The notes under the pieces: model-generated | What the model was told of the DNA's origin: nothing | Database searches by the model: none | What the model saw: the letters and a program-made list of their open reading frames with translations, nothing else | Assembly (NCBI GenBank): GCA_030680575.1 | Contig: JAUXVI010000036.1 | Coordinates: forward strand, 1 to 43,724 | From: Hylemonella sp. | Lineage (GTDB): Bacteria > Pseudomonadota > Gammaproteobacteria > Burkholderiales > Burkholderiaceae_C | DNA: 43,724 nt | Direction: 5' to 3' | Made by a program: the position numbers and the translations under genes | Part shown: piece by piece, positions 1 to 10,431 of the stretch | How the letters are laid out: each line of letters begins with the position of its first letter | How positions within the stretch are numbered: position 1 is the first letter of the stretch

Positions 1-175
1 TACCTTCGTGCTGCGCACTCCGGTATTCGCCCTTGGGGCGGCCCGGCGGGCTCATCAGGGTACCTTCGTGCTGCGCACTCCGGTATTCGCCCTTGGGGCG
101 GCCCGGCGGGCTCATCAGGGTACCTTCGTGCTGCGCACTCCGGTATTCGCCCTTGGGGCGGCCCGGCGGGCTCAT
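1..175. repeat. 60-bp direct tandem repeat, nearly three copies
   Basis: Copies lie at 1-60, 61-120 and 121-175. The first two are identical, and the third matches until it diverges after base 175. The unit is 60 bp, exactly 20 codons, and it is in frame with the MFS transporter on the minus strand, where each unit encodes MSPPGRPKGEYRSAQHEGTL. There is no stop, so the array runs off the window and its true copy number is unknown. I recall similar peptide strings in Comamonadaceae proteins, which would make this a family-wide interspersed repeat, but I cannot check that here. Confidence 0.95.
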
Positions 176-793
176 GCGCCGCGTTGGTGGCGCAGCGGCC
201 AGCGCGGCCGGCGGCTTCTGCCGCATCAACGAGGCCAGCAGCGGCAGCGTCACCGCGCAGAAGATGCCCAGGCCGATATAAGTGCTGCGCCAGCCGGCCG
301 TGTCGACAAAGTGCTGCACGATCGGCGGCCATACCGCGCCGGCCAGGTAGTTGCCGCTGGCGCAGACGGCCACCGCAACGCCGCGCCGGCGCACGAACCA
401 CAGCGAGGTGTCGGCGATCAGCGGCGCAAACGTGGCCGAGCTGCCGAGCAGGCCGAGCAGGAGCCCGTGGGCCAGCGAAAAACCGACCAGGCTGTCGGAC
501 AGGCCGGCTGCGATGAAGCCCGCGCTCAGGCCGGTAGCCCCGATCAGTACCGGCAACATCACGCCGTAGCGGTCGGCCAGTCGGCCCATCGCGATGCCGC
601 CCGCACCGAAACCGAGCATCAAGAGCGTGTAGGGCAAGGAGGCGTCGGCGCGGGCGACGCCGAATTCGGCCTGCACCGCAGGCAGCACCACCGACACGAT
701 GTACATCGGACTGCTGCCGATGGTCATCGAGGCCAGTGCGATCGCCAGCCGCGTCCAGGCGTAGCGCGAGTCGGCGGCGTGGGCTGGGCTCAT
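1..793 (-). CDS. MFS transporter, N-terminal half, open at window edge
   Basis: This is the start of a major facilitator superfamily permease of the inner membrane; the substrate is unknown. The frame opens at ATG 793 and stays open to base 1 (264 codons). Residues 1-205 read as the usual six-helix N-terminal half, with the MFS loop 2-3 motif GRLADRYG at residues 70-77 and a run of hydrophobic segments ending near LPLLASLMRQ. From residue 207 the frame passes into a 20-residue tandem repeat, just where the central cytoplasmic loop between helices 6 and 7 belongs. The second half is not visible, so I cannot tell an expanded loop from a broken gene. The start lies 10 bases after the aldo/keto reductase stop, so it is probably the last gene of the minus-strand operon. 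Confidence 0.8.
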   Translation of the reverse strand, partial: MSPAHAADSRYAWTRLAIALASMTIGSSPMYIVSVVLPAVQAEFGVARADASLPYTLLMLGFGAGGIAMGRLADRYGVMLPVLIGATGLSAGFIAAGLSDSLVGFSLAHGLLLGLLGSSATFAPLIADTSLWFVRRRGVAVAVCASGNYLAGAVWPPIVQHFVDTAGWRSTYIGLGIFCAVTLPLLASLMRQKPPAALAAAPPTRRMSPPGRPKGEYRSAQHEGTLMSPPGRPKGEYRSAQHEGTLMSPPGRPKGEYRSAQHEG

Positions 794-803
794 CGGCGCA
801 TGG

Positions 804-1652
804 TCAGGTCATCGCCAGCGCGGCCTTGCGCTGCGGCGGCGGGAACAGCGCGTCGATCTGGCGCAGCGTTTCGGCGGACAGGACGCGATCGGCGACGGCC
901 AGGTTGTGGCGCAGATGTTCGAGTTCGACCGCCTTCGGGATCGCCACCACGCCGGGCCGCGACAGCACCCAGGCCAGCGCCAGCTGCGCGGCCGTCAGGC
1001 TCTGCGCCGCGCCGATGGCGGCCAGCGCCCGGTGCCGCGCCAGCGCGCCCTGGTCGATCGGGCTGTAGGCCATCAGCGGCATGCCGTGGCGGCGCAACCA
1101 CGGCAACAAGCTGAACTCGGCGCCGCGCTCGCCGAGCGAGAGATAGACCTGGTTCACCGCGCCGTCGGCTGCGACGGTCATCAGCTCGTTCATGTCGGCG
1201 ACATCGAAATTGCTGACGCCCCAGTGCGCGATGCAGCCGGCGTCGATCAGCGCATGCATCGCCGCCACCGTCGCTTCGAGTGGATGTTCCCCGCGCCAAT
1301 GCAGCAGGTACAGGTCGATGCAGTCCAGGCCGAGCCGCTTGCGGCTGCGTTCGCAGGCCGCAGCGGTGCCCTTGCGGCTGGCGTTGTGCGGATAGACCTT
1401 GCTGACAACAAACAGCTCCTCGCGGCGTAAATCGCCTGCCCGCAGCGCCTCGGCCACGGCCTGGCCGACGACTTCTTCGGCGCCGCCTTCGCCGTACATC
1501 TCGGCGCTGTCGATGAGCCGGTAGCCGATCTCGATCGCGCTGCGCAGCGCCGCGATCTCGGTTGCACGGCTGGCCCGCGATTCGCCCATGCGCCAGGTAC
1601 CCAGGCCGAGGGTCGGCATCAGCGCGCCCGAAGGCAGGGCCAGTGAGTTCAT
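804..1652 (-). CDS. Aldo/keto reductase
   Basis: NAD(P)H-dependent reductase of the AKR superfamily, a cytosolic TIM barrel of 282 aa, normal for the family. Counting from the chosen start, the catalytic tetrad is complete: Asp48 and Tyr53 in the segment RLIDSAEMYGEG, Lys85 in VVSKVYPHN and His118 in LLHW. The C-terminal part carries AIPKAVELEHLRHN, the usual NADP-contact region. The frame extends 14 codons upstream to 1694, but that extension has no family homology by eye, and ATG 1652 (MNSLALPSG) starts where AKR proteins normally begin. It sits 64 bases after the PaaK-like ligase and 10 before the MFS gene, so it probably belongs to the same operon. The substrate cannot be read from the sequence. 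Confidence 0.9.
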   Translation of the reverse strand: MNSLALPSGALMPTLGLGTWRMGESRASRATEIAALRSAIEIGYRLIDSAEMYGEGGAEEVVGQAVAEALRAGDLRREELFVVSKVYPHNASRKGTAAACERSRKRLGLDCIDLYLLHWRGEHPLEATVAAMHALIDAGCIAHWGVSNFDVADMNELMTVAADGAVNQVYLSLGERGAEFSLLPWLRRHGMPLMAYSPIDQGALARHRALAAIGAAQSLTAAQLALAWVLSRPGVVAIPKAVELEHLRHNLAVADRVLSAETLRQIDALFPPPQRKAALAMT

Positions 1653-1716
1653 CGTTTCAAGGGCGTGCAGCAAGGGCCATGGCCTGGGTCGCATGATGCT
1701 ATGGCCCTGGCCGTCA

Positions 1717-2991
1717 CTATTGATAGTTTCGCGCGTCCTCGATCACCTTGCCATCGTTGGGCAACTGGCCGGGCTGCTTCCAGGCCACTTCGCCACGCAG
1801 CTGGGTGACTTCGCGCAGGCTTTGCGCCACGCGCTCGGCCAGGCCCTCGGGGGGGGCGGTGCACAGCTCGGCGTGCAGGGTCATGCGGTCGTTGGCCATT
1901 TCGCCTTCGATGACCAGGCGTGCGCGGGCGATCTCGGGGTGGCGCTCGACGACCGTGGCGATCTGGCTGGCATGCACGAACATGCCGCGCACCTTGGCGG
2001 TCTGGTCGGCGCGGCCGAGCCAGCCTCTGATGCGCGTATTGCTGCGCCCGCTCGGGCAGGCGCCGGGCAGCACGGCCGACAGGTCGCCGGTGCCGAAGCG
2101 GATCAGCGGGTAGTCGGGGTTGAGGCTGGTGACCACGATTTCGCCGACTTCGCCATCGGCCACCACCTCGCCGCTGCCGGGGCGAACGATCTCGACGATC
2201 ACGCCTTCGTCGAGCACCAGGCCTTCGCGGGCCGATGTTTCGTAGGCGATGAGGCCGAGGTCGGCCGTGGCATAACACTGGTAGGCCTGGATGCCGCGCT
2301 CGATGAGCCAGTCGCGCAGCGAGGGGGGGAAGGCTTCGCCGCCGAGCAGGGCCTTGGTGATCGAGTCGATGGGGCGGCCGGTTTCGGCCGCTTTTTCGAC
2401 CAGGATCTTCAGGAAACCCGGCGTGCCGATATAGGCCTCGGGGCGCAGGTCGGCGAGCGCCTGCAACTGCAATTCGGTATGGCCCACGCCGCCCGGAAAG
2501 ACCGTGCAGCCGAGTGCCATCGCACCCGCTTCCATCATCAACCCGCCGGGCGTGAGGTGGTAGGAAAAGCAGTTGTGCACCAGGTCGCCGGCGCGCAGGC
2601 CGGCGGCAAACATCGCGCGCGCCAGGCGCCAATAGTCGCTGGCCGTGCCTTCGGGTTCGTAGATCGGGCCGGGCGATTGATAGACGCGCTGCGCTCGGCG
2701 CGTGGCTGCGAGTGCGCGCCAGCCGATGGTCGCGAAGCCGCCGAAGGGGTTGGCACCGCCGTCGCGAGCGGCCTGCTGGCGTTCGAGCAATTCGTGCTTG
2801 CGCACGACGGGCAGCGCGGCCAGCGCGGCGCGGCTGGCGACGGCTGCCGCATCGACGCCGGCCAGCGCGGCAGCGAAGGCGCCTGCATTGCGCTGCGCGT
2901 TGGCGATCTGTGTCGGCAGCGCGGCCATCAAGGCCGCTTCGCGCGCCGCCGGGTCGCGGATTTCCAGCGTGTCGTAGTACGGCGGGTTCAT
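1717..2991 (-). CDS. Phenylacetate-CoA ligase-like (PaaK family) adenylate-forming protein
   Basis: The 424-aa protein has the length and overall pattern of the PaaK family, which activates aryl or other acids to CoA thioesters through an acyl-AMP. Family features are the block TPGGLMMEAGAMALG, the A5-like region YQCYATADLGLIAYE, the RFGTGDLSAVL block and the C-terminal region GRADQTAKVRGMFVHASQI. The usual Ser/Thr/Gly-rich P-loop (SSGTTG in PaaK) is replaced by QSPGPIYEPEG near residue 100, so the nucleotide loop is atypical. The start at 2991 shares bases with the stop of the upstream 99-aa gene (ATGA), which implies translational coupling. Its place in a liv-type importer operon suggests it activates the imported acid; whether it is catalytic is uncertain. 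Confidence 0.8.
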   Translation of the reverse strand: MNPPYYDTLEIRDPAAREAALMAALPTQIANAQRNAGAFAAALAGVDAAAVASRAALAALPVVRKHELLERQQAARDGGANPFGGFATIGWRALAATRRAQRVYQSPGPIYEPEGTASDYWRLARAMFAAGLRAGDLVHNCFSYHLTPGGLMMEAGAMALGCTVFPGGVGHTELQLQALADLRPEAYIGTPGFLKILVEKAAETGRPIDSITKALLGGEAFPPSLRDWLIERGIQAYQCYATADLGLIAYETSAREGLVLDEGVIVEIVRPGSGEVVADGEVGEIVVTSLNPDYPLIRFGTGDLSAVLPGACPSGRSNTRIRGWLGRADQTAKVRGMFVHASQIATVVERHPEIARARLVIEGEMANDRMTLHAELCTAPPEGLAERVAQSLREVTQLRGEVAWKQPGQLPNDGKVIEDARNYQ

Positions 2992-3287
2992 TCGTCGTGG
3001 TCCCAGCGCGCCAGGCGCTTCTTCATCTCGTCGATCAATTTGCGCTGATCGGCGGCGGATTTCACGGCGATGCGATCCCACTCGGGTGTCAGCAGCGGCC
3101 GGCGCGCGAGCCTGGCCTGGATCGCTTCGCCTTCGATCGCCCATTCGACGACGCGCTTGCCGCGCAGCTCGAAGGCATTGCCGCGCTCCGCGAGTTTCAA
3201 ATCGCGCAGCGCGCGCTTGAGCGTCAGCAGCGCGTTCTCGGCGTTGAAGGGCGGCGGCGCAAAGCCAAAATCCTCGCCACTGCTCAT
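2988..3287 (-). CDS. Small conserved-looking protein of unknown function (99 aa)
   Basis: I do not recognise a named family. The protein is soluble, charged and helix-rich, with a C-terminal basic/acidic helix (RKLIDEMKKRLARWDHDE). No signal peptide or membrane segment is visible. ATG 3287 is preferred over GTG 3296 because it overlaps the stop of livF in an ATGA junction; its own stop overlaps the start of the PaaK-like gene in another ATGA. It is therefore wedged between importer and ligase by two coupled junctions, which argues that it is truly translated and works with one of them, perhaps as a small partner of the atypical ligase. That role is inference. Confidence 0.75.
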   Translation of the reverse strand: MSSGEDFGFAPPPFNAENALLTLKRALRDLKLAERGNAFELRGKRVVEWAIEGEAIQARLARRPLLTPEWDRIAVKSAADQRKLIDEMKKRLARWDHDE

Positions 3288-4105
3288 GACAACCACCGCT
3301 TGCGTCGTTTGTAGCTCTTGCCGTCTTTGAAGCTCTTGCGGTCGCTTCCATCCACACTTCGGCCCATGCCGAGGTAGAACTCCTTCACGTCCTCGTTTTC
3401 GCGCAGGCTCTTGGCAATGCCATCCATCACCACGCGGCCGTTTTCCAGGATGTAGCCGTAGTCGGCATAGCGCAGCGCCATATTGGTGTTCTGCTCGGCG
3501 AGCAGGAAGGTGACACCCTCGCGCTGGTTCAGGTTCTTGACGATCTCGAACACCTCTTCGACGATCTGCGGCGCCAGCCCCATGGACGGCTCGTCCAGCA
3601 GCACCATGCTCGGGTTAGCCATCAAGGCACGACCAATGGCACACATCTGCTGCTCGCCGCCCGAGGTGTAGGCCGCCTGCGAGCTGCGGCGCGTCTTCAG
3701 GCGCGGGAAGTAGTTGTAGACCTTCTCCAGATTGGCGGCGATTTCGGCCTTGCTCTTGCGTGTGTAGGCGCCGGTCAGCAGGTTTTCCTCGATGGTCAGG
3801 TGCGCAAAGCAGTGCCGCCCTTCCATCACCTGCACCACACCGCGCTGGACCAGGTCGGCCGGCGACAGGTTCTCGATGCGTTCGCCACGCAATTCGATCG
3901 TGCCTTTGGTGACCTCGCCCCGCTCGCCCTGGAGCAGGTTGGAGACGGCACGCAGCGTCGTGGTCTTGCCCGCGCCGTTGCCGCCCAGCAGGGCGACGAT
4001 GCCGCCCTCGGGCACCTGCAGCGACACGCCCTTGAGCACCAGGATCACGTGGTTGTAAATGACCTCGATGCCGTTGACGTTGAGTAGTATGTTTTTCGGA
4101 TCCAT
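3284..4105 (-). CDS. livF: ABC transporter ATP-binding protein, LivF type
   Basis: One of two cytosolic ATPases of a branched-chain-amino-acid-type (HAAT family) importer. The 273-aa protein has an intact Walker A (GGNGAGKTTT), signature TSGGEQQMCAIG, Walker B LVLLDEPSMGLAP-like segment and H-loop region. It carries a C-terminal extension of about 25 residues (DGSDRKSFKDGKSYKRRKRW) that is basic and longer than usual LivF. ATG 4105 is chosen because AAAGG lies about 6-10 bases upstream; a longer in-frame extension to 4180 runs through a hairpin and is rejected. It is separated from livK by 173 bases holding two hairpins and is followed by an ATGA-coupled small gene. Confidence 0.9.
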   Translation of the reverse strand: MDPKNILLNVNGIEVIYNHVILVLKGVSLQVPEGGIVALLGGNGAGKTTTLRAVSNLLQGERGEVTKGTIELRGERIENLSPADLVQRGVVQVMEGRHCFAHLTIEENLLTGAYTRKSKAEIAANLEKVYNYFPRLKTRRSSQAAYTSGGEQQMCAIGRALMANPSMVLLDEPSMGLAPQIVEEVFEIVKNLNQREGVTFLLAEQNTNMALRYADYGYILENGRVVMDGIAKSLRENEDVKEFYLGMGRSVDGSDRKSFKDGKSYKRRKRWLS

Positions 4106-4136
4106 ACGGATTACCTTTGCCTTCGCATTTGCCAAT

Positions 4137-4164
4137 CGAGAGGGTTGTTGCGGCAACCCTCTCG
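4137..4164 (-). promoter_or_regulatory. Perfect 11-bp stem-loop in the livK-livF gap
   Basis: CGAGAGGGTTG (4137-4147) and CAACCCTCTCG (4154-4164) are exact reverse complements around a 6-base loop. On the minus-strand transcript no U-run follows it, so it is not a typical terminator. It lies just upstream of the livF ribosome site and could stop RNase decay or damp expression of livF relative to livK. Confidence 0.7.
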
Positions 4165-4208
4165 GCTGGCGGCTGCCCATGCAGCCTTGCCTTCAGTCCG
4201 AGGCCACT

Positions 4209-4275
4209 GGCGTCGTCCCCCTTCCCGAGCGCAGCGCGAGAGAAGGGGGAAGTCGCGCAGCGGCTCAGGGGGATG
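4209..4275 (-). repeat. REP-like hairpin element after livK stop (copy 1)
   Basis: Read on the minus strand, it starts CCCCCTGAGCCGCTGCGCG and then forms a stem of TCCCCCTTC against GAAGGGGGA. A diverged copy with the same orientation relative to transcription lies at 16631-16700 in the other liv operon. Both copies begin within a few bases of a stop codon that is followed by ATG (TGATG). I recall this sequence class as common in Comamonadaceae intergenic regions. Confidence 0.75.
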
Positions 4276-4278
4276 CCA

Positions 4279-5607
4279 TCAGGACTGGCAATCGTTGGCC
4301 GGACGACGGCTCATCTTCTTGTCAGCCAGGTACTTGTCGGCGCCGGTCTTGACCATGGGCTTGATGATCTGCTCATCGGCCTGATACCAGTCGGAGGACA
4401 TGTTCCATTTCTTGCCGTCCCAGGTATGGACGCGTGCCCAGGTCGAACCCATGTGGTCAGCACACGAGGTGCTCAGCGGGCGCATCACATCGGTAAAGCC
4501 CAGTGCATCCAGACGCTTCTGGTCCAGCGCCAGATTCTCCAGACCCCAGCGCACCTGCTCGCTGGTCATGACCTTGCCCTTGCCGAAACGCTCTTGCGCA
4601 CGGCGTACGGCTTCCACACCCAGCATCTGGATGATCACGCCGCGGGTGTAGAGCACGGAGCCCACTTCATCCTTCGGGCCGGTGCCCTGACCCTTGCCAT
4701 GCACATGCTTGAGGATCTCCTGGATCACCTTCGGCTGCTGGCTGGAGCTGTTGAGCGCCAGTGCGTTGTAGCCCTTGGCACCATCACCCACGTCCTTGGC
4801 ATCCGGCTCGGCGCCAGCCCACCACACGCCGTACATCTTGTCGCGCGGATAGCCGGTGGCCTGCGCTTCCTTCAGCGCGGTGGAGTTCATCACACCCCAG
4901 CCCCACAGCAGCACGTAGTCGGGGCGGCTCTGGCGCACCTGCAGCCAAGTCGCTTTCTGCTCGACTCCCGGCGCCGTGACCGGCAGCAGTTGCAGGTCAA
5001 AACCGTGCATCTTGGAACGCTCCTGCAGCAGCGGGATCGGCTCCTTGCCGAAGGGGCTGTCGTGGTAGACCAGGGCCACTTTTTTACCCTTGAGCTTGTC
5101 CAAGCCACCCAGGCTCTTGCCGATGTGCTGGATCAGGATGTCGGCACCCGTCCAGTAGCTGCCCATGAGCGGGAAGTTCCACTTGAAGGCCGTGCCGTCC
5201 TGCGACACCGACAGACCGTAGCCCAGTGTGATCAGGGGCATCTTGTCGGCCGGGGCCTTCTCGGTCAGCGCGAAGGTGATGCCGGTGGACTGCGGATCGA
5301 ACAGGGTCACACCGGGGCGGCTCTTCAGACGTTCGTAACACTCCACACCACGGTCGGTGGCATAACCGGTCTCGCATTCCTCGAAGGTCAGCTTGACGCC
5401 GTTGATGCCGCCGTCGCGGGCATTGATCATCTTCAGGTAGTCCTGCTTGCCATTGGCCCAGGGCGTGCCGTTGGGCGCGTAAGGACCGGTACGGTAGGAC
5501 AGCAGCGGGAAGAACTGCTCCTTGGCCTGCGCAAAGGCGCCGGTGGCCAGGCTCGTCGTCCCAGCTGCCACGACGGCAGCGGCGATCACCAGTTTCGAAA
5601 GCTTCAT
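4279..5607 (-). CDS. livK: ABC transporter substrate-binding protein, LivK/HAAT type
   Basis: Periplasmic binding protein of the importer (442 aa, at the long end for LivK-type proteins). Residues 1-26 form a Sec signal peptide: a Lys at position 2 and 5, a hydrophobic core VIAAAVVAAG and cleavage after AFA-QA. The mature part has the type I periplasmic-binding fold pattern (YAPNGTPWANGKQDYLKMI near the start, KKVALVYHDSPFGKE in the middle). The start at 5607 is set by an excellent ribosome site AAAGGAGACAACC directly upstream. The distance of 56 bases to livM upstream and 173 to livF downstream, with hairpins after the stop, fits the usual over-expression of binding proteins. The ligand is unknown; the neighbouring CoA ligases suggest a carboxylic acid rather than an amino acid. 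Confidence 0.9.
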   Translation of the reverse strand: MKLSKLVIAAAVVAAGTTSLATGAFAQAKEQFFPLLSYRTGPYAPNGTPWANGKQDYLKMINARDGGINGVKLTFEECETGYATDRGVECYERLKSRPGVTLFDPQSTGITFALTEKAPADKMPLITLGYGLSVSQDGTAFKWNFPLMGSYWTGADILIQHIGKSLGGLDKLKGKKVALVYHDSPFGKEPIPLLQERSKMHGFDLQLLPVTAPGVEQKATWLQVRQSRPDYVLLWGWGVMNSTALKEAQATGYPRDKMYGVWWAGAEPDAKDVGDGAKGYNALALNSSSQQPKVIQEILKHVHGKGQGTGPKDEVGSVLYTRGVIIQMLGVEAVRRAQERFGKGKVMTSEQVRWGLENLALDQKRLDALGFTDVMRPLSTSCADHMGSTWARVHTWDGKKWNMSSDWYQADEQIIKPMVKTGADKYLADKKMSRRPANDCQS

Positions 5608-5663
5608 GGTTGTCTCCTTTGGATGTAAGTGTTGAAGCACGGGAAATACCAGCGGACAGGAAC

Positions 5664-6740
5664 TCAGTACGGGAACGGCCACACGCGCAGCTTCTGCTTG
5701 GCGGTGGACCACAGCTTGGCCAGGCCATGCGGCTCCACGATCAGGAACCAGACGATCAGGCCGCCGAAGATCATCAGTTCCGCATGCGAAACGTCGGCCG
5801 TCGAGATCTCGACGCCGAACACGCCGAACAGCGCCGGCAGGAACTGATTCAGCAGGATGGGCAGCACCACGATGAAAGCGGCACCGAAAAAAGCCCCCAT
5901 GATGGAACCCAAGCCGCCAATGATGACCATGAAAAGCAGGCGGAACGACACTTCCACCGAGAACGCGGCTGGCTCCCAGGAACCCAGGTGGACAAAAGCC
6001 CACAAGGCACCGGCCACGCCGATAATGAAGGAGCTGACCGCAAAGGCGCTGAGCTTGGCGTACATCGGGCGGATGCCGATCACGGCAGCAGCCACGTCCA
6101 TGTCGCGAATGGCCATCCACTCGCGGCCGATGGCACCACGCACCAGGTTCTTGGCCAGCAAGGCCATGACCACCAGGATCGCGAGGCAGAACCAGTACTT
6201 GCTCTGGGCACTGTCGATCGGCAGGCCGAAGACCTGCAACGAAGAGACCGATACCGAGCCCGACGGCGAATCATTCGTCAGCCACTTGATGCGCAGAAAC
6301 ATCCAGTCGCTGAAGAACTGGGCCGCCAGCGTGGCCACTGCCAGGTACAAGCCCTTGACGCGCAGGCTGGGCAAACCGAACAGGATGCCGAAGAAAGTTG
6401 CGCACAGACCGCCGAGGATCAGGGCCGGGATCAGCGGCATGTCAGGCACGCGCACGAAGAAGTTGTAGGCGCCATATGCACCCACCGCCATGAAGGCACC
6501 GGAGCCGAGGGAAATCTGACCGCAATAACCTACCAGCACGTTCACGCCCAGCGCCGCAAGCGACATGATCAGGAACGGAATCAGGATGGCGCGAAAGGTG
6601 TAGTCGCTCACCAGCAAGGGGACCGCCACAAACGCCACTGCCAGCAGCAACAGGATGACCACCCGGTCCTGCGCGATCGGGAAGATCTGCTGATCCGCCT
6701 TATAGGACGTCTTGAATTGACCGTTTTCTCTGTAAAACAT
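5664..6740 (-). CDS. livM: ABC transporter permease, LivM type
   Basis: Inner-membrane permease of 358 aa with about eight to ten hydrophobic helices after a 25-residue polar N-terminus (MFYRENGQFKTSYKADQQ). The LivM family marks are the segment GYCGQISLGSGAFMAVGAY near residues 70-90, the coupling-loop-like REWMAIRDMDVAAAVIGI region and the conserved GGLGSIMGAFFGAAFIV near residue 275. It begins 11 bases after the livH stop, so the two permeases are co-translated and presumably form the heterodimeric channel. Confidence 0.92.
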   Translation of the reverse strand: MFYRENGQFKTSYKADQQIFPIAQDRVVILLLLAVAFVAVPLLVSDYTFRAILIPFLIMSLAALGVNVLVGYCGQISLGSGAFMAVGAYGAYNFFVRVPDMPLIPALILGGLCATFFGILFGLPSLRVKGLYLAVATLAAQFFSDWMFLRIKWLTNDSPSGSVSVSSLQVFGLPIDSAQSKYWFCLAILVVMALLAKNLVRGAIGREWMAIRDMDVAAAVIGIRPMYAKLSAFAVSSFIIGVAGALWAFVHLGSWEPAAFSVEVSFRLLFMVIIGGLGSIMGAFFGAAFIVVLPILLNQFLPALFGVFGVEISTADVSHAELMIFGGLIVWFLIVEPHGLAKLWSTAKQKLRVWPFPY

Positions 6741-6751
6741 CTTTCAGCCTC

Positions 6752-7681
6752 TTACACGCGGTCAATGATTTTTTCGCCAAACAGCCCTTGCGGCCGCACC
6801 AGCAGGAACAGGAGCGCCAGCACATAGGCAAACCAGATTTCAATGCCGCCGCCGACATACGGCCCGAGAAACACCTCGGACAACTTCTCACCGACACCGA
6901 TAATGAGTCCGCCGATAATGGCGCCCGGCACCGACGTCAGGCCACCCAGGATCACCACCGGCAAGGCGCGCAAGGCCACCGTGGTCAGGGAAAACTGCAC
7001 GCCAAGCTTGGAGCCCCAGATCATTCCCGACACCAGCGCCACGACGCCGGCAACGCACCAGACGATGACCCAGATGCGGTTGAGCGGAATACCGATCGAC
7101 TGCGCTGCCTGATGGTCGTCGGCCACGGCGCGCAGGGCGCGGCCGGTCGAGGTCTTCTGGAAGAACAGGCTGAGCGCCGCCACCAGCGCAGCGGCAATCG
7201 CGGCGGCGATCACGTCTTCCTTATTGACCAGAATGCCCCCCTCGAACATCGACTCCAGCACGAAGATCGGCTCCTTGGGCATGCCGACATCAATCTTGTA
7301 GATGTCGCTGCCGAACAGCGTCTGGCCCAGGCCTTCCATGAAGTAGGTGATGCCCAGCGTGGCCATCAGCAGCGTCGCAGCCTCCTGGTTGACAAGATGG
7401 CGCAACACTAGGCGTTCAATCAGCCAGGCAACAACAAACATGATGACACCCGCGATCACGAAGGCCGCGATATTGGCCACGATCGGGTTGTCGATGCCAG
7501 TCCAGCTGGGTATCCACTCGGCGAAACGCGCCATGGCCAGGGCCGCGAACAGCACCATGGCGCCTTGGGCGAAGTTGAAGACACCCGATGCCTTGAAGAT
7601 CAGGACGAAGCCCAGCGCCACCAGCGAATACAGCATGCCGGCCATCAGGCCGCCAAGCAGGGTTTCCAGAAAAAAAGCCAT
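6752..7681 (-). CDS. livH: ABC transporter permease, LivH type
   Basis: Inner-membrane permease of 309 aa. Family marks are GLMAGMLYSLVALGFVLIFKASGVFNFAQGA at residues 11-40, the coupling-loop segment TSTGRALRAVADDHQAAQSIGI near residues 175-200, and GGLTSVPGAIIGGLIIGVGE near residue 250. It lies 18 bases after livG and 11 before livM. Confidence 0.93.
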   Translation of the reverse strand: MAFFLETLLGGLMAGMLYSLVALGFVLIFKASGVFNFAQGAMVLFAALAMARFAEWIPSWTGIDNPIVANIAAFVIAGVIMFVVAWLIERLVLRHLVNQEAATLLMATLGITYFMEGLGQTLFGSDIYKIDVGMPKEPIFVLESMFEGGILVNKEDVIAAAIAAALVAALSLFFQKTSTGRALRAVADDHQAAQSIGIPLNRIWVIVWCVAGVVALVSGMIWGSKLGVQFSLTTVALRALPVVILGGLTSVPGAIIGGLIIGVGEKLSEVFLGPYVGGGIEIWFAYVLALLFLLVRPQGLFGEKIIDRV

Positions 7682-7699
7682 GTTGAAGTCCCTCTGCGC

Positions 7700-8485
7700 T
7701 CAGTGGCTGGTGCCCAGGTAGGCCTGGATCACGTCTTCGTTGTTACGCACCTCGTCCGGTACACCGTCACCAATCTTCTTGCCGTAGTCGAGCACCACAA
7801 CACGATCGGAGATGTCCATCACCACGCCCATGTCGTGCTCGATCAGCACCACGGTCGTGCCGAACTCGTCGTTGACATCGAGGATGAAGCGGCACATGTC
7901 CTGCTTCTCCTCCACGTTCATGCCGGCCATCGGCTCGTCGAGCAGCAGCACCTGCGGCTCCATCGCCAATGCCCGCCCGAGGTCGACGCGTTTTTGCAGG
8001 CCGTAGGGCAGTTGGCCGACCGGTGTCTTGCGGTGCGCCTGGATTTCCAGGAAATCGATGATGCGTTCGACCTGCTCGCGGTGGCGGATCTCCTCCCGCT
8101 CGGCCGGGCCGATGCGCAGCGCCTGCATCAGCAGGTTGCTCTTGATCTTCAGGTTGCGGCCCGACATGATGTTGTCGAGCACGCTCATGCCCTTGAACAG
8201 CGCCAGGTTCTGGAAGGTCCGTGCCACCCCCATCTCGGCCACCTGCCGGCTGTTCATGTGGTGAAAGGTCTGGCCGCGGAAGGTGATCGAGCCCTGCTGC
8301 GGCTGGTACACGCCATTGATGCAGTTGAGCATGGAGCTCTTGCCGGCGCCGTTGGGGCCGATGATGGCGCGGATCTCATGCTCGCGTACATTGAAGGAGA
8401 TGTCGGTCAGCGCCTTGACGCCGCCGAAGGAGAGGGAAATGTTCTGAACGTCCAAAATGACGTCACCCATGGGCCGTTGTTTCAT
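7700..8485 (-). CDS. livG: ABC transporter ATP-binding protein, LivG type
   Basis: Second ATPase of the importer, 261 aa. Walker A is GPNGAGKSS, the Walker B region reads VLLLDEPMAGMN and the H-loop is LIEHDMG. The ABC signature is unusual: instead of LSGGQ the family position reads LPYGLQKRVDLGRAL, which is the LivG-typical variant (YGxQRRLE). It starts at 8485, 11 bases after the acyl-CoA synthetase; an internal ATG at codon 6 is also possible. Confidence 0.92.
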   Translation of the reverse strand: MKQRPMGDVILDVQNISLSFGGVKALTDISFNVREHEIRAIIGPNGAGKSSMLNCINGVYQPQQGSITFRGQTFHHMNSRQVAEMGVARTFQNLALFKGMSVLDNIMSGRNLKIKSNLLMQALRIGPAEREEIRHREQVERIIDFLEIQAHRKTPVGQLPYGLQKRVDLGRALAMEPQVLLLDEPMAGMNVEEKQDMCRFILDVNDEFGTTVVLIEHDMGVVMDISDRVVVLDYGKKIGDGVPDEVRNNEDVIQAYLGTSH

Positions 8486-8496
8486 CTAGTCATTCC

Positions 8497-10431
8497 TCAG
8501 GCGGCCTTGGCTACGCTCGGGTAGCACTTCGCATCGCGAATCTGCAGCGTGGCCGAGACCACGCCGGTACGGCCATCCTCGAACTTCACCTGCGTTTCAA
8601 TGAACTGCTCACTGCGTCCGGTGTAGAGCGCGTCGATCAGCACCGCATACTTGTCGGCGATGAAGCCGCGCCGTACCTTGCGGGTGCGGGTCAGCTCGTC
8701 ATCGTCCGGGTCCAGCTCCTTGTGCAGCACCAGGAAGCGGGCAATCTGGGTGTCGCTCATGCCCTCTTCGGCGGCCAGGTCGGCGTTCACCTTGGCCACG
8801 CAGTCGGCCATCATGTCCAGCACCTGCTGCTTGGCGGCCAGATCGACATAACCCCCATAGGGCAGCGCCTGACGCTCGGCCCAGTTGCCCACCGCTTCGA
8901 AATCGATGTTGATGAAGGCGCAGACCTGGTCGCGGGTGTGACCGAAGCAGACCGCCTCCTTGATCTGCGGGAAGAACTTGAGCTTGTTCTCGATGTAGTT
9001 GGGCGCGAAGATGGCGCCGCTGGCCAGCTTGCCGACGTCCTTGGCGCGGTCGATGATGTGCAGATGCCCATCGTGGTCGATCACACCCGCGTCACCGGTA
9101 TGGAAGTAGCCCTGCTCATCGATCACCTCGGCAGTGGCATCGGGCCGCTTGTAATACTCCTTGAGCACCGAAACGCCGCGCACCAGCACTTCACCGTTGT
9201 CTGCAATCTTGATCTCGATGCCCGGCGCCGCCTCGCCCACGCTGTTGAGCTTGACGCGGCCGTTCTTCTGGATGCAGACGTAAGCGCAGGTCTCGGTCTG
9301 GCCATAAAGCTGCTTGAGGTTGATGCCGATGGAGCGGTAGAAGCGGAACAGGTCCGGCCCGATGGCCGCACCGGCCGTGTAGGCCACGCGGATGCGGCTC
9401 AGGCCCAGCACGTTGCGCAGCGGCCCGTAGACCAGCACATTGCCCAAGGCATACAGCAGACGGTCCGTCAGCGGGACCTGGTGACCATCCAGGATCTCGG
9501 CACCGCAGCGGCGCGCCACCGCCATGAACTTCTGGTACAGCCAGCGCTTCGGCGCCGCGGCATCTTCCATGCGGATCGACACCGAGGTCAGCATGCTCTC
9601 GAACACGCGCGGCGGTGCAAAGTAATAGCTGGGACCGATCTCGCGCAGGTCGATGGAGACCGTGGCCGCCGACTCGGGGCAGTTGATGGTGAAACCCGCC
9701 ACCAGCCACTGCGCAATCGAGAACAGGTGGTCACCCACCCAGGCCGGCGGCAGGTAGGAGATGATGTTGTCGTCGGGGTTCAGGCCGTCCACCTCCACGC
9801 CACCGCGCGCCGAGTTGATGAAGCTGGCATGCGTCTGGCACACGCCCTTGGGCCGCCCGGTGGTGCCGGAGGTGTAGAGAATGACGGACACGTCGCTCGC
9901 TTGTCCCTGCTCGACCGAGTCCTTGTAAAAAGCCGGGTGCGCGCGCTCGTACTCGCGACCCAGTTCGAACAGGCGCTCGACACTGATCAGCCCTTCGTGT
10001 TTGTAGTTGCGCAGACCGCGCGGATCGTCATAGATGATGTGCTTCAGGCTGGGCACGGTTTCGCGCAGCTCCAGCAGCTTGTCCACCTGCTCCTGGTTCT
10101 CGGCAAACACGAATTCGATTTCGGCATCTTCCAGCACAAAGGCCATTTCACTGGCCACTGCATCCTGGTACATCGGCACCGGCACGCCGCGCAGGCTTTG
10201 CGCCACCAGAAAGGACAGGTACAGGTGGGGCCGGTTGTCGCCGATGATGGCCAGGTTGTGCCCGGGCTGGAAACCGAGCGCCGCCAGGCCGCAGCTCATC
10301 AGGCGCACATCCTCAGCGGCACGCGCCCAGCTCCAGGTCTGCCAGATGCCGTACTCCTTCTCACGCAAAGCGGGCGCTTGCGGGCGCTCGGCGGCATGCT
10401 TGAGCAGGAGTCGCGGAAAAGTCGTCTGCAT
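8497..10431 (-). CDS. AMP-dependent synthetase / long-chain-acyl-CoA synthetase-type ligase
   Basis: Adenylate-forming enzyme (ANL superfamily, 644 aa) that would convert a carboxylic acid, ATP and CoA to acyl-CoA, AMP and PPi. The P-loop VILYTSGTTGRPKG is intact near residues 182-195, the A5 motif reads LKQLYGQTETCAY, and the hinge region YFHTGDAGVIDHDGHLHIIDRAKD is complete. Length and pattern resemble the long-chain/bubblegum-type synthetases. It is the first gene of the minus-strand operon, with AAGGAATT just upstream of ATG 10431. Association with a liv-type importer is typical of systems that activate the imported acid on entry; chain length or aromatic nature of the substrate cannot be told from sequence. 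Confidence 0.9.
   Translation of the reverse strand: MQTTFPRLLLKHAAERPQAPALREKEYGIWQTWSWARAAEDVRLMSCGLAALGFQPGHNLAIIGDNRPHLYLSFLVAQSLRGVPVPMYQDAVASEMAFVLEDAEIEFVFAENQEQVDKLLELRETVPSLKHIIYDDPRGLRNYKHEGLISVERLFELGREYERAHPAFYKDSVEQGQASDVSVILYTSGTTGRPKGVCQTHASFINSARGGVEVDGLNPDDNIISYLPPAWVGDHLFSIAQWLVAGFTINCPESAATVSIDLREIGPSYYFAPPRVFESMLTSVSIRMEDAAAPKRWLYQKFMAVARRCGAEILDGHQVPLTDRLLYALGNVLVYGPLRNVLGLSRIRVAYTAGAAIGPDLFRFYRSIGINLKQLYGQTETCAYVCIQKNGRVKLNSVGEAAPGIEIKIADNGEVLVRGVSVLKEYYKRPDATAEVIDEQGYFHTGDAGVIDHDGHLHIIDRAKDVGKLASGAIFAPNYIENKLKFFPQIKEAVCFGHTRDQVCAFINIDFEAVGNWAERQALPYGGYVDLAAKQQVLDMMADCVAKVNADLAAEEGMSDTQIARFLVLHKELDPDDDELTRTRKVRRGFIADKYAVLIDALYTGRSEQFIETQVKFEDGRTGVVSATLQIRDAKCYPSVAKAA

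Follow-up and report, generated by a model that had tools for sequence, protein, structure and literature searches.

What is an exactly repeated 60-bp unit doing inside the reading frame of a transporter, at the very end of a contig from Hylemonella sp.? The window, by which we mean the whole stretch of DNA that was analyzed, is the entire contig of 43,724 bases; because its base 1 is the contig end, this assembly holds no DNA to the left of the array. Our main reading, to which we assign a probability of roughly 0.8, is that three tandem in-frame copies of an interspersed Burkholderiales element, built of two hairpins and likely mobile through insertion at RTGA, stand within an MFS permease gene.

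A 60-bp unit tripled in a permease reading frame

The array, detected by repeat and pattern searches, occupies positions 1 to 175 of the minus strand. It comprises three 60-bp units head to tail (2.9 copies, ended by the contig edge), which are 100% identical across their shared length. The core pattern matched three times in the window and not once in 100 dinucleotide shuffles. Following the reading direction of the permease, unit 1 (MSPPGRPKGEYRSAQHEGTL) lies at 116 to 175, the identical unit 2 at 56 to 115, and unit 3, which stops 5 bases short of its end, at 1 to 55. The A that follows GAAGGT in unit 3 fits the ACC (Thr) type of the repeat and not the Ala type. A CRISPR array was ruled out, as the units are contiguous at 60-bp spacing with no unique spacers between them.

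Unit 1 starts with ATGA (172 to 175, minus strand, as are all features of the unit). Here it supplies a Met codon, and elsewhere, in most copies tested, its TGA is the stop of the upstream ORF. Next comes hairpin 1 (149 to 171), with an outer stem of 4 bp in the 60-bp form and a 15-nt loop, supported by covariation that is stronger in the 62-bp form. Hairpin 2 (122 to 144), with the stems ACC/GGT and GTGC/GCAC, contains a Shine-Dalgarno–like GAAGGT (122 to 127), and the next ATG (113 to 115) lies 6 nt further on.

The permease ORF (2 to 793, minus strand) is open up to the edge and encodes 264 amino acids. As judged from the ORF, a domain match, and the predicted structure, it represents the N-terminal half of the gene (helices 1 to 6) together with the array, the 3′ half lying beyond the contig end. 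MFS_1 matches residues 29 to 202 (E 5.4e-21), and the best-ranking NCBIfam hits, to lactate and oxalate/formate transporters, score far below their cut-offs. In the AlphaFold model, which was built from an alignment of 17 sequences (mean pLDDT 72.8, the five models ranging from 52.8 to 72.8), the long helices stop at residue 190, and pLDDT is below 50 for residues 194 to 264. The prediction is that the units make up a cytoplasmic loop without fixed structure, which would join helices 6 and 7 and be tolerated by the transporter. A putative re-initiation of translation at the ATG of a unit inside the permease is possible.

The original prediction of three in-frame 60-bp units was correct: they are exact copies on the minus strand, the first starting from residue 207, and, as it also stated, no stop interrupts the frame, which is open through the array to base 1. 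Its range of 1 to 793 held for the repeat only at 1 to 175, the remainder (176 to 793) being ordinary permease. Beyond the permease, toward the interior of the contig, lies an aldo-keto reductase–like ORF (804 to 1694). Further in, there are two ORFs that we take, from their motifs, to be ligase-like (1717 to 3357) and ABC ATPase–like (3284 to 4180).

An interspersed element with two hairpins and a stop/start geometry

When named genomes were scanned with a DNA pattern, at least 119 stretches matched, in records that include Variovorax, Rubrivivax, Rhizobacter, Acidovorax, Aquabacterium, Curvibacter, and Bordetella. Covariance models made from 28 and 31 units detected the element in 20 of the 26 genus genomes (E ≤ 0.001) and in 100 of 150 sampled genomes of the family (E ≤ 1e-4); copy counts in the family genomes are lower bounds, as at most 35 candidates were scored per genome with stricter filters. 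Used as a query, the 60-nt unit gave no match in 24 genomes that belong to other families of the order. The same unit matched 23 of 60 genomes, a figure that we did not use because many of the matches were only of the hairpin-1-core kind. Across 15 loci there were no Rfam matches at E ≤ 1, which ruled out an Rfam RNA family. We found no description of the peptide strings or of the element in Burkholderiales in the open-licence literature, subscription journals being mostly outside the scope of the search, and the family is apparently undescribed so far.

Matches in the window's own genome on contigs C51, C53, C21, and C12 were excluded, as they have only the hairpin-1 core in common with the element and look like another repeat. 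A second interspersed repeat was observed (loci L005 to L008, L026 to L038, and L042), which has the hairpin-1 core in common with the element but is often extended by a G/C-rich stretch and ...AGCGTGGGGGC; at L042, it occurs in tandem with a spacing of about 84 bp. The own genome also carries a two-unit array of the 62-bp form at L064 (G000:C53), between two genes that are presumably histidine kinase–like and response regulator–like, and a related genome, G002, has a two-unit array ahead of a similar regulator gene (L047, G002:C3).

To describe the junctions, we used 120 arrays from the listed scan loci, of which 107 were single, 11 double, one had four units, and one had five; the flanks were testable in 116. 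NTGA was present at the 5′ end of the element in 111 of the 116. A start codon followed the element in 109, mostly as NTGA (100 of 109) and exactly 6 nt past GGT (96 of 109). The 5′ TGA closed an upstream frame of at least 100 codons in 97 of the 116 arrays, as compared to 20% of 2,390 random NTGA, and the frame behind the downstream start was open for at least 100 codons in 88, as compared to 49% of 2,400 random RTG; both contrasts are inflated, since the script kept whichever candidate stop and start had the longest open frame. Annotated records agreed with this geometry in three cases, and in a fourth, there was no annotated same-strand gene upstream.

The hairpins were evaluated by covariation. 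Stem 1 of the 62-bp form showed 17 double-changed cells against a shuffled mean of 6.6, with none of 500 shuffles as high, and 96.4% of its cells were paired as compared to 24.9 to 44.0% in slid controls. Two of the five measures for this form were weak, namely the number of doubly changed pairs (equaled or exceeded in 19 of 500 shuffles) and that of further pair types (in 247 of 500). The outer stem of the 60-bp form covaries too, with one stem 1 pair broken in 8 of 31 sequences; an alternative fold of this form (5-8/12-15 and 16-20/24-28) was rejected, as its support was weaker than that for the outer stem. Hairpin 2, within which GAAGGT or GGAGGT is located, is part of the search pattern and therefore had little room to vary. 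The original prediction did not include that the unit is first of all an element acting as nucleic acid, which sits at gene junctions and has a stop/start geometry of its own; its ATG belongs to the ATGA that makes up the overlap elsewhere.

The element could instead be a REP-like sequence mobilized by a RAYT-type Y1 transposase, and Y1_Tnp indeed matched in 25 of the 26 genus genomes, mostly in a single copy. However, it was also found in five of the six genomes in which model R1 finds no element, and the four Y1 loci that we examined (of 30 matches) had no element core within about 1.5 kb on either side. We therefore regard mobilization by such a transposase as unlikely and favor the two-hairpin element inserting at RTGA.

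Empty sites, filled sites, and copies inside genes

Insertion was assessed at a gene pair that was picked because Variovorax paradoxus NBRC 15149 had the element there; from their motifs, we take the two genes to be LysE and EamA. All but one of the 19 genomes or records in the search contained the downstream gene. Of these 18 Variovorax pairs, 16 lacked the element; the two genes overlapped by ATGA in 15 of the 16. The filled sites, in NBRC 15149 and V. boronicumulans CC172, had ATGA at both ends of the element. This comparison, from one gene pair, suggests that the element inserted into the overlap and that the four bases were regenerated.

Copies were also found within genes. The ATG frame of the 60-bp form contains no stop, and its length is divisible by three, so that each in-gene unit adds 20 residues. 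The phosphoesterase P0137 has three units and P0209 has two, both flanked as ...R / array / MSASDAHT and with the array spanned by Pfam phosphoesterase models. Among 30 loci encoding homologs without the array, the corresponding site read ATGAGC in 4 and ATGGG in 14; it was CTGAGC in the nearest homolog (L305), and the rest had neither motif. In-gene array sites, too, resemble a start codon. In the FAD oxidoreductase P0216, residues 2 to 209 and 251 to 409 align to 3dme_A residues 8 to 216 and 218 to 368, and the 41 residues between the aligned blocks are, by this alignment, a clean insertion, as is the array of the phosphoesterase. Last, the baseplate-like proteins P0141, P0202, and P0230 carry three, two, and two units, with flanks that agree at 139 of 139 residues on one side and 99 of 99 on the other, which is a direct case of copy-number variation.

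Copy number at the permease locus

A permease match at E ≤ 1e-100 was present in 87 of 299 genomes of the family. G276, a genome placed in a different genus of the same family, has an intact, stop-free permease gene of 436 amino acids with exactly one unit, located between helices 6 and 7 and flanked by CGGCGC / ATGAGC ... CCCTG / ATGGGC. Between the G276 contig and the window, identity is 99.1% across 1,408 bases and 98.7% across positions 104 to 1691 of the window. The original prediction had proposed counting copies in related strains; at this locus, 98.7 to 99.1% identical in the two genomes, G276 has one unit as compared to at least three in the window. Thirty further orthologs from the family were examined, out of the 87 genomes with a match; no unit was present in any of them, and their sequences are too diverged there for the empty site to be read. 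At L336, the array region of the permease has a frameshift and is without a unit.

A protein search with the repeat stretch recovered P0149, a protein of 260 amino acids encoded on a contig of 4,696 bases. Its N terminus lies inside an array, beginning with AQHEGTL, followed by one full Thr-Leu unit and one Ala-Leu unit; after the array come MGTTALPSTRPFGL and then the second permease half (helices 7 to 12). When compared to the 15 best orthologs, the permease part of P0149 was 88 to 94% identical and the N-terminal half in the window 83 to 87%. From their near-identity, we infer that P0149 and the window contig come from one gene. The last unit of P0149, like the single unit of G276, is of the Ala type, and unit 3 of the window is of the Thr type; if both contigs belong together, the array therefore has at least four units, and the window contig probably broke within it. 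Among the best 120 homologs listed, the repeat peptide was present only in the window's own protein, and the unit search found no full-length protein record with the array. The two longest homologs, the metagenome proteins P0240 and P0241, have internally duplicated permease segments without a unit and are possibly assembly chimeras.

The intact one-unit gene of G276 and the C-terminal half in P0149 support the view, one of two alternatives in the original prediction, that an interspersed repeat expanded in the loop and gave a protein of variable copy number. Could the true gene nevertheless have one unit, as in G276, and the array be an assembly artefact? The contig ends within the array, and short-read assemblers handle exact tandem repeats badly. 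However, a single unit should neither break a contig nor give 175 bases of exact period; moreover, there are two unit types, Thr-Leu at the end here and Ala-Leu at the end in P0149, and another protein has two as compared to three units between identical flanks. An artefact is thus rather improbable, and a genuine array, expanded from the interspersed element, is the more probable reading.

The relation of the window to G276 is not uniform. Identity to the G276 contig C6 is 98.7% at 104 to 1691, 94.5% at 1686 to 4084, and 75 to 79% further in, and along the same stretch, the GC content drops from 70% to 67% to 62%. These gradients suggest that the operon gained its permease end by import not long ago or that the contig is chimeric. 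Segments of 104 to 9752 match G276 in conserved order.

Reading frames and the encoded peptide

The repeat stretch matched 1,416 of 5,073 candidate proteins at E ≤ 1, and such a spread could mean that the repeat is retained for its peptide, a linker or tag of 20 residues under selection at the protein level. We analyzed the frames of 168 distinct units, which were picked for NTGA at both ends and were mainly 65, 60, or 62 bp long (65, 45, and 41 units). Consistent with a selected peptide, the ATG frame had no interior stop in any of the 168; however, the other two frames were stop-free in 164 and 148. The entropies at codon positions 1, 2, and 3 were 0.465, 0.313, and 0.355 for the 60-bp form, 0.677, 0.611, and 0.724 for the 62-bp form, and 0.430, 0.436, and 0.441 for the 65-bp form. 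Thus, there was no clear excess at the third position and no sign of selection on the peptide. In addition, the 62- and 65-bp forms are related DNA read in another frame, and what recurs among the units is the hairpins and the stop/start positions.

The placement of the repeat within proteins points the same way. Among the best 120 of the 1,416 repeat proteins, it was N-terminal in 98, in the middle in 9, C-terminal in 5, and unclassed in 8, and the N-terminal position may simply come from where the gene caller placed the start, with translation being putative. This distribution is in line with the in-frame length of the 60-bp form. Selection for a peptide is therefore very improbable, and the recurrence of the unit is better described by the gene-junction element. 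In 108 of the 168 units, the ATG frame formed a mini-ORF ending exactly at the TGA that overlaps the next start; among the remaining units, 50 continued in frame into the next start, 6 had another stop near the end, and 4 did neither. Lengths that are multiples of three plus two could stem from a few founding forms rather than from selection.

Last, the proposal of the original prediction that the permease gene is broken and its frame runs by chance through the repeats to the contig end, which would fit the failure to find the C-terminal half in the window's own binned assembly, is contradicted for G276 by the intact gene (436 amino acids, one unit, 99% identical across the shared stretch) and is very unlikely for the window, since the C-terminal half in P0149 begins within the array and both halves match one shared set of orthologs, the 15 best listed, at 83 to 94% identity.

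Discussion

The repeat in the permease is real, largely explained, and moderately surprising, being an atypical member of a gene-junction element that occurs throughout the family. We propose that RTGA-like sites serve as its points of insertion, in most cases where the stop and start of neighboring genes overlap. There, the upstream gene would keep its TGA, and the downstream gene would retain its start and gain a Shine-Dalgarno–like sequence. The element would survive because translational coupling stays intact, either via mini-ORFs closed at the following start codon, as in the 62- and 65-bp forms, or via an in-frame extension, as in the 60-bp form, both of which would keep ribosomes moving over the insert. 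Among 14 cases of overlapping gene pairs put to the test, 13 showed translational coupling, according to the excerpted text of PMC6728339, and models of coupling that involve RNA unfolding are among those covered in a review (PMC12548453, excerpt). Within the permease, the array would have grown from a single unit, such as that of G276, through slippage or direct-repeat recombination.

A comparable system is known from mycobacteria, where the insertion consensus of MIRU is DTGA. MIRUs were first reported from a two-component operon (Supply et al. 1997), and the review excerpted above (PMC12548453) describes them as short, apparently mobile sequences that insert at start codons and contain an ORF coupled to the gene with a spacing of −4 nt; the typing papers, in their available portions, report that their tandem copy number is variable. 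The Burkholderiales element likewise lies at stop/start overlaps with its ends overlapping the neighboring ORFs, the contrast of filled and empty sites coming from one gene pair, and its tandem copy number varies too (one in G276 and at least three in the window; three, two, and two in P0141, P0202, and P0230). As for an internal ORF coupled to the downstream gene, such coupling is putative here; by geometry, 108 of the 168 units picked for NTGA at both ends have an ORF that ends exactly at the 3′ TGA, 50 fuse in frame, and 10 do neither exactly. By these descriptions, the two differ in that mycobacteria belong to another phylum, that the element described here has hairpins with compensatory changes and a Shine-Dalgarno–like end, and that its 60-bp form is stop-free, fuses to the next gene, and also occurs in frame inside genes.

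The in-gene copies resemble Rickettsia palindromic elements (RPE), which are about 150 bp long, have an open frame, and insert in frame into unrelated protein-coding genes (PMC10969869, excerpt), just as the Burkholderiales element is in frame in MFS, FAD oxidoreductase, and phosphoesterase genes. In contrast to that account of RPE, the element is about 60 to 65 bp long, has two separate hairpins, occurs at RTGA sites and mainly at gene junctions, and forms tandem arrays. The enterobacterial RU-1/2/3 are likewise small mobile repeats with ORFs within annotated genes; they measure 103 to 168 bp, and the abstract mentions no stop/start-overlap geometry (PMC2759123). REP/BIME sequences with RAYT are, as excerpted, high-copy small repeats with hairpins as well (PMC2817692); unlike those, the units in the arrays examined here run head to tail rather than alternating, and no core lies beside the four Y1 genes examined. 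Going by these partial accounts, the element seems to work like MIRU and, within genes, like RPE, but we file it as neither: the size of RPE does not fit, and it is set apart from MIRU by description and not by sequence comparison.

We lean slightly toward a broader view, in which a MIRU-like mobile family present in two thirds of the sampled family genomes targets and regenerates the ATGA of coupled genes, and the 60-bp form also spreads mid-protein as a tunable generator of disordered linkers, with 20 residues gained or lost per step. If true, this would provide a second, distant bacterial group with a small repeat that lands on the stop/start overlap, its filled and empty sites being known from named genomes, and would make the proposed MIRU mode of spread testable in laboratory strains that are harmless. 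It would also explain the odd N-terminal "MSPPGRPKGEYRSAQHEG" extensions of many predicted proteins and offer a simple route by which repeats enter proteins with the frame unbroken.
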